Source: Ezakiella coagulans (GTDB lineage Bacteria > Bacillota > Clostridia > Tissierellales > Peptoniphilaceae). From it: a stretch of DNA of 64,000 nucleotides. The notes under the pieces were generated by a model. The model did no database searches and was not told where the DNA came from. It saw only the letters and a program-made list of their open reading frames with translations. Made by a program: the position numbers and the translations under genes. The DNA is taken from NCBI RefSeq assembly GCF_003096635.1, contig NZ_QEKV01000007.1, forward strand, positions 1 through 64,000, in the 5' to 3' direction. Each line of letters opens with the position of its first letter. Within the stretch, counting starts at the first letter, position 1. Shown here piece by piece: positions 16,075 to 20,318 of this stretch.

Positions 16075-16091
16075 GGTTAGAAAAGGTCAGA
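16075..16091 (+). promoter_or_regulatory. CtsR operator-like direct repeat
   Basis: Two heptads, GGTTAGA and GGTCAGA, separated by AAA. This matches the layout of the CtsR box (GGTCAAA-N3-GGTCAAA) with an A to G change at heptad position 6. It lies just after the -10, so bound CtsR would block transcription of its own operon. Confidence 0.65.
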
Positions 16092-16130
16092 AATAATTTG
16101 ATGATAAATTAAAGAAAGGGGTTGAGATTT

Positions 16131-16604
16131 TTGGCAGGATTATCTAATTCAATTGAAGATTTTTTGAATAAGCTTTTAGACGATAATGAAGGGATTGTTG
16201 AGCTCAGAAGGAACGAACTTGCCAATGACTTTAATTGCAGTCCATCGCAAATTAACTATGTTTTACAAACCAGATTTCAACCGACAATGGGATATTATAT
16301 TGAATCGAGACGAGGCGGCGGAGGTTATATTAAGATTGAAAGGGTTGAAATTCATGTTCACAATGGATTTTTTGAAGAGCTGTTGGATAGTATAGGTGAT
16401 TCTATTACTTTAAATGCAAGTGAACAAATCATAGATATGTTAAGTTCATATTCTATTATAGATAAAAAGGAAGAAAATTTACTCAAGGCGGCTATTGAGG
16501 AAAGAGCGCTCGATATTAAGGGGCAAGACAGAAATGTTTTGAGAGCAACTTTACTTAGAAATATGTTGCTTGCGGTTTTCAAGGAGATTGATTATGAAGA
16601 ATAG
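16131..16604 (+). CDS. ctsR: CtsR, transcriptional repressor of class III heat-shock genes
   Basis: A 157-residue dimeric winged-helix repressor of clp genes. I choose TTG 16131 as start: it gives MAGLSNSIEDFL, matching the family opening, and AAAGGGG lies nine bases upstream. A TTG at 16122 would sit almost on that site. The DNA-binding part includes NCSPSQINYVLQTRF and the glycine-rich wing ESRRGGGGYIKI, whose Arg/Gly loop is the known heat-sensing and operator-contact element. It is first of ctsR-mcsA-mcsB-clpC-radA and overlaps mcsA by 11 bases. Confidence 0.93.
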   Translation: MAGLSNSIEDFLNKLLDDNEGIVELRRNELANDFNCSPSQINYVLQTRFQPTMGYYIESRRGGGGYIKIERVEIHVHNGFFEELLDSIGDSITLNASEQIIDMLSSYSIIDKKEENLLKAAIEERALDIKGQDRNVLRATLLRNMLLAVFKEIDYEE

Positions 16605-17004
16605 AAATTTATATAATGACGCAAATGGTGGTGAAAATCACAATAGAGTAGATGTTAATGTTGTTCTTTCCGATGATATTATGAATTTCTTAAAGGGACT
16701 AGAAAAGTTGGCATCAGATGGGGATGAAGATAGCAATGAAAAAGAGTGTCCGAAATGCCACAGAAAGTGGGCGGATATAAGTCTTAGGATGGCTGTTGGA
16801 TGCGAGGTTTGTTATAAAGTATTTAAGAAGGAAATTTCAGAAGCAATGAAAAATAGAAATCTTTATCCTATGCTTCAAAAAAGGGATGAGTTTGCGGATT
16901 TAAAACGCGATCTTGAGGTAGCGATAAGACTTGAAGAATATGAGAAAGCCGAAGAGATTAAGAAAAAACTTGAGGAGGCGGCACATGGTAATTCAAGGAT
17001 ATAG
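16594..17004 (+). CDS. mcsA: McsA-like protein, short form
   Basis: A 136-residue homologue of McsA, the zinc protein that activates the McsB arginine kinase and modulates CtsR. The ATG at 16594 follows AAGGAG. Only one zinc site is visible: CPKC at about 50 and CEVC at about 69. The N-terminal CxxC pair of Bacillus McsA is replaced by an Asn-rich stretch without cysteines. A UVR-type helical hairpin (LKRDLEVAIRLEEYEKAEEI) is at the C-terminus. It overlaps ctsR by 11 and mcsB by 20 bases. The missing zinc finger may go with the degenerate McsB next door. Confidence 0.82.
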   Translation: MKNRNLYNDANGGENHNRVDVNVVLSDDIMNFLKGLEKLASDGDEDSNEKECPKCHRKWADISLRMAVGCEVCYKVFKKEISEAMKNRNLYPMLQKRDEFADLKRDLEVAIRLEEYEKAEEIKKKLEEAAHGNSRI

Positions 17005-17938
17005 TTTTGACTTTTTTAGAAATTTAAGGGGTTATAAATATCCGTCAGAACTTACTTTGGAAGAGAAAAATGCAGTGAGAAATACTTTTCTTTCAGAAAT
17101 TTCAAAGCTTCCAATTCCATTAAGATATGTTCCTTCATATTTTGCACAAAAAGGTGAAGTGGATTCTTTCGTGGAGAAAAATCTATTATCAATGGGTGTT
17201 TCCAATGAAGATGCAAGTATTTTATATGATGATAAATCAAAAATAATAATTACTATTAATGATACGGAACACTTATCATTTAGCGGTTATACTTTGGATA
17301 ATCCTGTGAAGAAGTATGATGAATTAAATGGATATTTGAGGATTATGTCAGAAGATTTGGCTTTTCAAAAAGATAGAAATTTCGGATATTTATCGAGTCA
17401 AATTCCTCTTTGTGGAAATGGATTTATGATTGATTCAATCGTTCATATTCCGGCACTTATGAATTCTAACAAGGTAATGTATATGGTAAACAAAACTATG
17501 AGAAGGCCTGGTGCACTTTTGATTCCGTATTCAGATAAGGCTGCAGCAAGTGCATTTTTTATAGTTAGATGTATTTCAAAAACAGAACCGTATAAGGATA
17601 TAAATTTTATAGAAAATATTGTGTCCGAGCTAGAAGTAAAAGAAAGAGCCGAAGCTTATGAACTAGGACAAAATCAAAATTTTATGGAGTTTTTGGCAGA
17701 TAGGGTTGAATCGGCAAGAAATAGTGGAAGAATTAGTACCGGTGATTTTTTGAGAACCGTTGATGATATTATACTTTTTAGAAAAATCATGGGCGATGAA
17801 GTACAAGGCGAGAAAATCAGAAATGTTCTAATAAAAACACAAGGCACGAATATTTCTAATATGAATTTTAAACATAATGAAATCGAAGAATATTTTTATT
17901 CTTTGCTATTTGAGGATAAGGAGGGATTAAATGCTTGA
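16985..17938 (+). CDS. mcsB: McsB-like protein, probably catalytically inactive
   Basis: A 317-residue homologue of protein-arginine kinase McsB (usually ~350), placed by synteny and by RNLRGYKYP, GYLSSQ and VHIPAL blocks. Start is ATG 16985 after GAGGAGG. Conserved catalytic features are lost: the SSRIRLARN opening is GYSFDFFRN (both leading arginines gone, Ser7/Asp9), the SCPTNxGTGLR loop is SQIPLCGNGFM (Cys to Gln139, Arg to Met148), and the GEGSEA segment is PYSDKAAASA. The frame is intact and tightly coupled to mcsA and clpC, so it looks maintained, perhaps as a ClpC adaptor or CtsR-binding pseudokinase. That role is inference. Confidence 0.8.
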   Translation: MVIQGYSFDFFRNLRGYKYPSELTLEEKNAVRNTFLSEISKLPIPLRYVPSYFAQKGEVDSFVEKNLLSMGVSNEDASILYDDKSKIIITINDTEHLSFSGYTLDNPVKKYDELNGYLRIMSEDLAFQKDRNFGYLSSQIPLCGNGFMIDSIVHIPALMNSNKVMYMVNKTMRRPGALLIPYSDKAAASAFFIVRCISKTEPYKDINFIENIVSELEVKERAEAYELGQNQNFMEFLADRVESARNSGRISTGDFLRTVDDIILFRKIMGDEVQGEKIRNVLIKTQGTNISNMNFKHNEIEEYFYSLLFEDKEGLNA

Positions 17939-20318
17939 TTTTTCAAGGTTTGATAAAATCGCAAGAGAGGTAATAGAGTTCAGCGAAGAAGAGGCTAGAG
18001 CGTTAAAGGCTGATGTTGTCGGCACTCATCACATTCTTCTTGCCGCTCTGAAAAGAACAGATGCTGAAATTATAAACGTTTTAGCAAGATATGGACTTGA
18101 TTATAATAGATTTTACAATGGACTTGTTGATATAGTGGGAATCGGTGATAGTGAGAGGGTTCAAGGAACAACACCTGGGTATAGGAGAGTCGTTACAAGA
18201 GATGTAAAAAGGCTTGCGGCTTTGATGCGAGAAAATATGGTCACTCTTGATGTACTTGTTACCGCAGCGATAAGTGATAATACAGATATTACTGATATGG
18301 TATTGAGAAGTCTTGACTTTGACAAACGGCTATTCATAAGAAATATGCTTAATCAGGGCGATGAAGAAATGGGCCCGGACGGTCCAAACATGTCGGATGA
18401 AGAAATTTTTGAAAATTATACTACAAATTTAAATGAAAAGGCAAAGAGTGGAGAGATTGATCCTGTTATAGGACGTGAAAAAGAAATCTCTAGGATGGTT
18501 GAAATTTTGTCGAGAAGGACAAAAAACAATCCGACGCTTATCGGCGAGCCGGGAGTTGGTAAAACGGCTGTTGTTGAAGGTCTATCTGAAAAAATTGTAT
18601 CAGGAGATGTCCCATACTATTTAAAAGATAAAATCATTTATAAGGTTGATTTGACAATGCTTGTTGCCGGAACAAAATATAGAGGGGACTTTGAAGATAG
18701 AATTAAAAAACTTCTTGAAAGGGCAAAAAATGACGATACAGTCATTCTATTTATTGATGAAATTCATAATATTGTCGGTGCCGGGGGGTCAGAGGGAAGT
18801 CTTGATGCTTCGAATATTTTAAAGCCTTATCTGGAAAGAGGAGACATTCAAATCATTGGAGCTACTACATTTGATGAATATAGAAAATATATAGAGAAAG
18901 ATTCTGCACTTGAAAGACGGCTTCAAACCATAACTGTTGAAGAACCTACAGTTGATGAAACTATAAAGATTTTGAAAGGTATAAGAAAGAAATTCGAGGA
19001 ATATCATAGGGTTAAGATTACAGACGATGCACTTATTGAAGCGGTAACTCTTTCGGAAAGATATCTTACTGAAAGATTTTTACCGGACAAAGCAATCGAC
19101 GTTATGGACGAGGCGATGAGTAAAAAGCGTACAAAAGTAAAGGGTGAAGATTCTTCGAAGATTCTAAAAGAGCAATTGGAATCTATAATCGAGGAAAAGA
19201 AAGCGGCTGTTTTAAAACAGGATTTTTTGCGTGCTGCTCGACTAAGAGATGAGGAAAGAATAATAGAGGACAAGATTTCAAAAGACTCGCTCGAAGCTGC
19301 AAATAAGTATGAAGTTGTGGACAAGTCGGTAATCGAAGAGGTTGTGTCAACTTGGAGTGGAGTTCCGGTTTCTCAAATGACTGACAATGAACTTTTAAAA
19401 TTGAGAAATTTTGAGAAGAAGTTAAGTGATAGAGTTATCGGTCAAGAGGAAGCAATTTCTGTCATTGATAGAGCTATAAAGAGGTCAAAGGTAGGGCTTA
19501 AAGACCCGAATCGTCCGATTGGAAGCTTTTTATTTGTCGGACCGACAGGAGTTGGAAAGACTTATCTTGCAAAGAGAATTTCTTATGAGCTATTCGGAGA
19601 CGAGAATAAAATGACAGTTGTAGATATGAGTGAATTTATGGAAAAACATAGCGTCTCAAAGCTCATCGGTTCGCCTCCGGGATATGTCGGATATGAGGAA
19701 GGCGGTAGGCTTACTGAGTCCGTAAGAAAAAATCCGTATCAAGTTATTTTGTTTGATGAAATTGAAAAAGCACATCCAGATATTTTCAATGCTCTTCTAC
19801 AAATTTTGGAAGAGGGAAGACTCACAGACAGCAAGGGAAAAGTTGTAGATTTTAAAAATACGGTTATAATTATGACTTCAAATGCCGGCACATCTGATTT
19901 AAAGAAAAAGAACACATATGGCTTTGGAGGAGGTAATGAAACTGAAAACGAAGCGATAAAGGGCAAGGTAGATAAAGCACTGAAAGAAATGTTTAAACCT
20001 GAATTCTTGAATCGTGTCGATGAAATTGTCGTATTTAATACACTCAACCAAGAAGCAGTGAAGAAAATTGTAAATCTTGAAATTGAAAAGATAAAATCAA
20101 GAATTAAAGATAAATATGAACTTGAAGTTACGGATGATTTTTTGACTCATGTTGCAAAGGAAGGATATAGTGACACTTACGGTGCAAGACCTATAAAGCG
20201 TGTTTTAATGAAGTCGCTTGAAGATGTTATTTCAGAAGAAATTGTCCGCGGTCAAATTCAACCTGGGGATAAAGTTATTCTCGATTTCAAAGATAAAGTT
20301 GTGGTAAACAGGGAATAG
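17931..20318 (+). CDS. clpC: ClpC, AAA+ unfoldase of the Clp protease
   Basis: A 795-residue ATPase that unfolds proteins and feeds them to ClpP. In order: N-terminal repeat domain (about 1-145); AAA1 with Walker [15 protein letters not shown] and Walker [15 protein letters not shown]; a coiled-coil middle domain with a UVR-like segment ([16 protein letters not shown], about 425-440); AAA2 with [14 protein letters not shown] and [15 protein letters not shown]; and the C-terminal D2-small domain. Length is normal. Its ATG overlaps the mcsB stop by eight bases, and the CtsR box upstream implies heat control. Confidence 0.97.

Follow-up and report, generated by a model that had tools for sequence, protein, structure and literature searches.

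A McsB homologue without catalytic residues, retained as a probable pseudokinase in the ctsR operon of Ezakiella coagulans

Protein arginine kinases have McsB as their founding member, and the phosphoarginine mark is viewed as a tag for degradation that is read by ClpC. The ctsR operon of Ezakiella coagulans raises the question of what a McsB might do when the residues for this chemistry are gone. An original prediction, made from the DNA letters alone, described the McsB encoded there as a pseudokinase, paired with a shortened McsA, that may serve as a ClpC adaptor or CtsR modulator. This was followed up in the window (the whole stretch of DNA analysed, 64,000 nucleotides) and in related genomes, where family, order and class are those of the window's organism and g1 is its genus. 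We consider it probable that this McsB is a pseudokinase in a McsA-McsB complex, which would act on ClpC and/or CtsR without phosphorylation.

The operon and the former active site

The operon has the order ctsR-mcsA-mcsB-clpC, with gene overlaps of 11 bases (ctsR/mcsA), 20 bases (mcsA/mcsB) and 8 bases (mcsB/clpC). The next gene is, by its sequence, presumably radA. The features of the locus are as follows.

16,075 to 16,091, forward strand: direct repeat GGTTAGA-AAA-GGTCAGA resembling a CtsR operator, upstream of ctsR (placed by position alone)
16,122 to 16,604, forward strand: ctsR, heat-shock repressor (PF05848, N-terminal domain, 111.4 bits; PF17727, dimerisation domain, 66.4 bits)
16,594 to 17,004, forward strand: mcsA without the N-terminal zinc finger (NCBIfam McsA 30.2 bits, cut-off 210)
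16,747 to 16,812, forward strand: zinc finger 2 of McsA, CPKC...CEVC, the kept module for docking of McsB (by motif; docking role from passages of PMC12467219 and PMC7235348)
16,985 to 17,938, forward strand: mcsB, probable pseudokinase, 317 aa from ATG (PF00217, residue alignment, fold model, dN/dS)
17,003 to 17,011, forward strand: Ser7-Phe8-Asp9 replacing Arg29-x-Arg31 (alignment to B. subtilis McsB)
17,384 to 17,392, forward strand: Gly134-Tyr135-Leu136, conserved at the end of the loop assigned to contact with McsA (alignment; loop from passages of PMC12467219)
17,399 to 17,428, forward strand: former active-site loop, with Gln139 for Cys167 and Met148 for Arg176 (alignment)
17,931 to 20,318, forward strand: clpC (Pfam), with the pocket glutamates replaced by His33 (18,027 to 18,029) and Asp107 (18,249 to 18,251)

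As had been proposed, mcsB is an intact frame between mcsA and clpC that overlaps both (16,985 to 17,938; 20 and 8 bases). Its product matched PF00217 (E 2.1e-10, 40.8 bits, cut-off 22.4) and scored 33-51 bits with four NCBIfam McsB models, whose cut-offs are 381-679; the best score, 51.1 bits, thus did not reach the equivalog cut-off of 381. McsA of the window had no Pfam family match. The original prediction would have been refuted by a second, intact mcsB with decay of the present copy in relatives: no second PF00217 match was found in the genome of the window (1.8 Mb, 20 contigs, 99.85% complete), and dead mcsB was under purifying selection in the genome pairs compared. A six-sequence alignment search placed the genome in the Ezakiella group, with relatives in Ezakiella peruensis, two Ezakiella MAGs and one Tissierellia MAG. 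Viral contigs yielded no relative. Matches to the operator-like repeat in the window were as frequent as expected by chance (2 versus 2.14 expected), and the half-site GGTTAGA of the copy upstream of ctsR is diverged.

The catalytic positions were read against B. subtilis McsB (PDB 8wtb sequence) in an alignment of 121 operons, comprising the window, 101 other family genomes and 19 outgroups of the same order. Eight positions were scored: R29, R31, E121, R125, C167, R176, R207 and E212. E121 and E212 count as catalytic glutamates of McsB. For the others, passages of PMC7235348 report that R29K, R31K, R125K, R176K and R207K each abolish activity of B. subtilis McsB and that C167S is kinase-inactive. 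The window McsB keeps none of the eight in this alignment. The claimed losses of both leading arginines (now Ser7 and Asp9), of the cysteine (Gln139) and of the loop arginine (Met148) were borne out; in addition, Glu121 and Arg125 are replaced by Thr and Ser, and Arg207 and Glu212 by Ile and Lys. The GEG segment is gone, in agreement with the reported loss of GEGSEA. None of the eight residues remains in five further members of the genus either, and their frames are open, which excludes chance or sequencing error as the source. The phosphoarginine receptor pocket (R337/D338/R341) has none of its three residues in the six genus members, although R337 (2/22) and D338 (5/22) are seldom kept in intact family McsBs too. 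Over the old catalytic loop, the six Ezakiella-group McsBs share the sequence PL[CS]GxGxxxD, and most of it belongs to the positions that are invariant within Ezakiella.

An AlphaFold2 model of the window McsB, built from an alignment of 5 sequences, reached moderate confidence (pLDDT 75.1, pTM 0.75). Its best solved Foldseek match was McsB 6tv6_B, and VIA-align superposed it on 6fh1_B over 301 residues of both domains (Z 22.9, rmsd 3.9). The model thus predicts that the two-domain phosphotransferase and dimerisation fold is present, in line with the claim that the McsB fold landmarks are kept. Residues 130-141, which lead up to and include the position of the old catalytic cysteine, had pLDDT <50.

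Recurrence of the loss and selection on the gene

Among 130 family genomes, CtsR was matched in 123 and McsB in 102. Of the latter, 22 keep six to eight catalytic residues (hereafter intact) and 80 keep zero to two (hereafter pseudo), and no genome keeps three to five. Twenty intact McsBs have all eight residues, G014 has seven (C167S) and G022 six (R176K, E212T). The pseudo forms keep none (53 genomes), one (23) or two (4), and the replacements at the catalytic positions vary among their lineages. All eight residues are present in 19/19 same-order outgroups. A further 19 family operons (L244-L263 except L252) have ctsR, mcsA and clpC still adjacent with mcsB cleanly absent; G016, which has YwlE, was excluded from the McsB-less counts because the contig stops within its operon. 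One pseudo genome, G132 (L154), has a short mcsB frame and a broken clpC frame at 5% genome contamination, and these frame defects are likely to be an assembly error.

The main ClpC-core tree had 104 rows, i.e. 68 of the 102 McsB-bearing family genomes, 17 McsB-less genomes and 19 outgroups; outgroups G058-G060 and the McsB-less G124 were left out. The intact/pseudo label changes at least four times on this tree, and the intact/pseudo/absent label changes at least eight times. A reduced 63-row tree under a mixture model gave the same minima, 4 and 8. The ClpC-core tree rejected a single clade of all pseudo forms (delta lnL 98.65, AU p 0.007), but it did allow the Ezakiella and g16 lineage to be joined to the g5/g9/g14/g20/g22/g25 lineage (p 0.2).

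In the class sample, McsB was matched in 265/391 genomes, and 28 of these McsBs, mainly weak-scoring ones, were read residue by residue. In twenty, C167 is missing and the number of retained residues is 0-3 of 8; six others have 5-7, and two are fragments. The 20 dead forms occur in seven other families, ten of them in a single f60 genus and the rest in f27, f30, f74, f82, f98 and f99. The phylum sample had a match in 364/398 genomes and, outside the class, none weaker than 5.6e-53 among the matches listed. Within these samples, an eroded but recognisable McsB would therefore seem particular to this class.

The arginine phosphatase YwlE follows a similar division. LMW-phosphatase matches of the family were sorted by motif, with C-x-G-N-T-x-R (mostly CTGNTCRS) as the YwlE type; fragment matches in G004, in G085 and the second of two in G076 were left outside the count. 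YwlE was present in 21/22 intact genomes (missing in G066) versus 0/80 pseudo genomes, with the three fragment matches unread. The intact genomes included the variant motifs CIGNTARS (G022) and CAGNTCRS (G153). Of the 80 pseudo genomes, 46 had no LMW-phosphatase match, 32 had proteins of the C[VT]HNSCRSQ type, here called arsenate reductase, and 2 had fragments only. No LMW phosphatase was found in the window's genome. Class genomes were searched with a DNA pattern that encodes exactly CTGNTCR, with the reversed pattern as a control (0/58 genomes). It was found in 29/32 controls chosen by high PF00217 score, in 1/20 pseudo genomes (G353) and in 0/5 partly eroded ones, and also in G158, which keeps 7/8 catalytic residues. 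The YwlE motif beside a dead McsB in G353 and its absence from 3/32 controls count against the explanation that we prefer.

Some genomes show mixed states. In G022 (L192), the YwlE homologue with CIGNTARS occurs together with the altered McsB (R176K, E212T), so that both kinase and phosphatase are changed; the YwlE gene has tsaC-like, rpiB-like and upp-like neighbours. G388, G425 and G313 (L265, L270, L273) have a McsB with 5/8 residues, in which Cys167 is replaced by Phe or Asp, and lack the YwlE motif. These McsBs are possible intermediates between kinase and pseudokinase.

That McsB is still a catalyst, which would have a rebuilt active site and phosphorylate arginine or act as a different phosphotransferase, appears very improbable. 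Two observations point that way: the new loop PL[CS]GxGxxxD common to the six Ezakiella-group McsBs, and R34, an active-site residue essential for catalysis in B. subtilis McsB (passages of PMC7235348), which is kept in 79/80 family pseudo forms. Set against these are the loss from the window of the other five essential arginines scored, of both glutamates and of the cysteine, the lineage-specific nature of the replacements and the missing YwlE. R34 may have a second, non-catalytic role, as its retention in these forms would suggest.

Selection on mcsB was estimated by Nei-Gojobori dN/dS for 66 of 636 within-genus pairs, drawn at random with <=12 per genus and a ClpC dS of 0.15-2; G132 was left out, and pairs with clpC dS <1 were treated as close. 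Of the 18 close pseudo pairs, 16 had an mcsB omega of 0.049-0.194, namely 0.049-0.095 in 8 pairs (g16, g14, Ezakiella, g24, g6) and 0.134-0.194 in 8 (g22, g21), and in the remaining 2 (g21, g9) it was 0.43-0.44. Six close intact pairs gave 0.074-0.151. The single usable Ezakiella pair, G001-G005, of which the window is not part, had an omega of 0.059. Over all usable pairs the median was 0.177 for pseudo (n=47) and 0.128 for intact forms (n=15), and mcsB dN was about twice that of clpC in both (median ratios 1.9 and 1.8). These low values agree with the claim that the frame is under selection. The 0.43-0.44 of the g21 and g9 close pairs, and the highest value of 0.54 among distant ones (g56), count against the preferred explanation.

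A slowly decaying relic, with the kinase function gone and the gene leaving, held by time and operon context, would be an unlikely alternative in view of these data: the PF00217 stretch is free of stops in all 80 pseudo genomes, omega is <0.55 in 47/47 usable pairs, some McsB columns are invariant in 80/80 genomes, and so is the presence of the second McsA zinc finger. It gains from the 19 family operons without mcsB and from a large mcsB-less clade that groups with pseudo-McsB lineages on the tree, as well as from the omega of 0.43-0.54 in some g9, g21 and g56 pairs and the identity of just 37-44% between the window McsB and the other McsBs of its genus. The several lineages entirely without mcsB also count against the explanation that we prefer, since they imply that McsB is dispensable in the long run.

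The McsA docking finger, retained residues and ClpC

According to passages of PMC12467219 and PMC7235348, McsA uses its second zinc finger to dock McsB, at the loop before the catalytic cysteine (Y147-Y153 in S. aureus). The shortening of McsA was correctly predicted, as the window McsA has the second CxxC pair only; docking of McsB is, however, the task of the other finger and not of the lost N-terminal one. The first finger is lost and the second kept throughout Ezakiella (6/6) and g21 (6/6), and the first is altered in G112. Called by a spacing rule, finger 2 is kept in 80/80 pseudo, 22/22 intact and 19/19 outgroup operons, i.e. in 121/121 operons with mcsB. In the class pseudo genomes it is kept in 19/20, the remaining one having CxC for one pair. 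The 19 McsB-less family operons show the reverse, with the first finger in 19/19 and the second in 3/19 (lost in 16); two of the three genomes that keep it are from a genus whose sister genus has intact McsB. On the tree, this link amounts to two losses of the finger among four losses of mcsB, and independent-pairs sign tests were unable to reach 0.05, as the supporting correlations rest on 2-4 independent contrasts. Of all the observations, retention of finger 2 speaks most strongly for continued binding of the dead McsB to McsA, though it is suggestive and short of statistical proof.

The pseudo McsBs have also kept specific residues. With genomes weighted by genus, R34, N35, H123, G162, L164, G172 and E251 are retained at 94-100%, R255 at 92%, Y163 at 88% and R341 at 86%. 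Passages of PMC7235348 indicate that R86, R255, R272, R281 and R341 matter for stimulation by McsA in B. subtilis. Among the 20 class pseudo McsBs, R272 and R341 are found in 20, R255 in 19, R281 in 10 and R86 in 1; R86 is not kept in the family pseudo forms and is poorly kept in intact ones too. The good retention of R255 and R341 holds outside Ezakiella. Within the genus, R272, R281 and R341 are lost in 6/6 members and R255 in 4/6. These losses, and that of R86 from the family pseudo forms, count against the preferred explanation.

ClpC was examined as well. E32 and E106 are residues of its phosphoarginine pockets, which double as anchor sites of the resting state, as stated in passages of PMC12583610. 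In the window ClpC both glutamates are gone (His33, Asp107); neither this nor the missing phosphatase had been noted in the original prediction. Both are present in 22/22 intact genomes, 19/19 outgroups, 61/79 pseudo genomes (G132 was left out for its broken clpC frame) and 12/19 McsB-less genomes. The window and G004 are the sole pseudo genomes without either, which makes the window an extreme case. With 61/79 pseudo genomes keeping both residues, pocket loss was rejected as a marker of kinase loss in general; by this count phosphoarginine reading has not been lost across the board, which counts against the preferred explanation.

The changed pockets bear on a further alternative, in which McsB would be an inhibitor rather than an adaptor: a complex of McsA and the dead McsB would stabilise the resting state of ClpC or support repression by CtsR until stress releases it. 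In B. subtilis, McsB is held inactive through binding by ClpC, while repression by CtsR is favoured by McsA (passages of PMC12634643); moreover, the ClpC pockets that serve as resting-state anchors (PMC12583610, in part) are both changed in the window. Every sequence observation is, however, shared with an adaptor, so that the sequence data fit both equally. We regard such an inhibitor as unlikely, at about the same level as a decaying relic.

Possible role and comparison with known systems

Catalytic loss and continued selection on mcsB are well supported. The predicted pseudokinase gains support from residue loss, the missing YwlE, purifying selection and recurrence across lineages. As for function, we infer from the genomic data that kinase activity would be absent, that McsA would be bound and that ClpC and/or CtsR would be acted on, and we infer an adaptor role for McsB on the same grounds. 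In the explanation that we prefer, a protein of McsB fold would no longer transfer phosphate to arginine, and selection would keep it since a complex with McsA still forms through the second zinc finger of McsA. This complex would bind CtsR and/or aberrant proteins independently of phosphorylation, and would present them to, or tune, the ClpC unfoldase encoded by the adjacent gene.

Passages of PMC7235348 provide precedents in B. subtilis. The half-life of MgsR was 12.3 min with C167S McsB versus 17.7 min in the deletion, a difference that the authors attribute to an adaptor function independent of the kinase; they also cite work in which ClpCP degrades heat-inactivated CtsR whatever its phospho-state. 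The proposed role as ClpC adaptor or CtsR modulator is consistent with this analogy and with retention of the docking finger.

A broader scenario can be put forward tentatively, and may well be wrong: arginine phosphorylation would have been switched off independently many times in one class of anaerobes, each time leaving a phosphorylation-free McsA-McsB adaptor, with the phosphatase discarded, the docking finger kept, the Ezakiella loop rebuilt as a binding site and some ClpC pockets lost. If this is true, the adaptor function would be older than the kinase chemistry or easily re-exposed, and the chemistry would be an optional addition to it. The existing hint of a McsB role apart from chemistry comes from one lab mutant (PMC7235348, in part), and natural kinase-dead McsBs kept by selection make such a role testable. 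Among the matches listed from the open-licence PubMed Central literature, no description of a catalytically dead natural McsB was found, which does not imply its absence from print.

The window McsB fits a pseudoenzyme by its homology to the phosphagen kinase family with the catalytic residues lost and by the purifying selection on dead mcsB, and is classed, on sequence criteria, as a McsB-derived pseudoenzyme outside the equivalog of protein arginine kinases. In this class of bacteria, automatic annotation as "protein arginine kinase" can be unsafe. With the McsB kinases of B. subtilis, G. stearothermophilus and S. aureus (PDB 6tv6, 6fh1, 8gqd) it shares the operon, the G-Y-L end of the docking loop and, as modelled, the two-domain fold. 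It differs from them in lacking the eight catalytic residues and R337/D338/R341, and in NCBIfam scores far under the cut-offs.

Bacterial Ser/Thr pseudokinases, whose fold is unrelated to that of McsB, offer another parallel. There, too, a dead kinase is kept as a regulator or scaffold (passages of the review PMC12599244, where the two mentions of McsB found are both in the reference list). There is a further likeness with the C167S lab mutant of B. subtilis, which is likewise non-catalytic and has residual adaptor-like activity (PMC7235348, in part). That mutant is an engineered single change, whereas here the whole active site has been eroded naturally, in several lineages, and YwlE has been lost as well.
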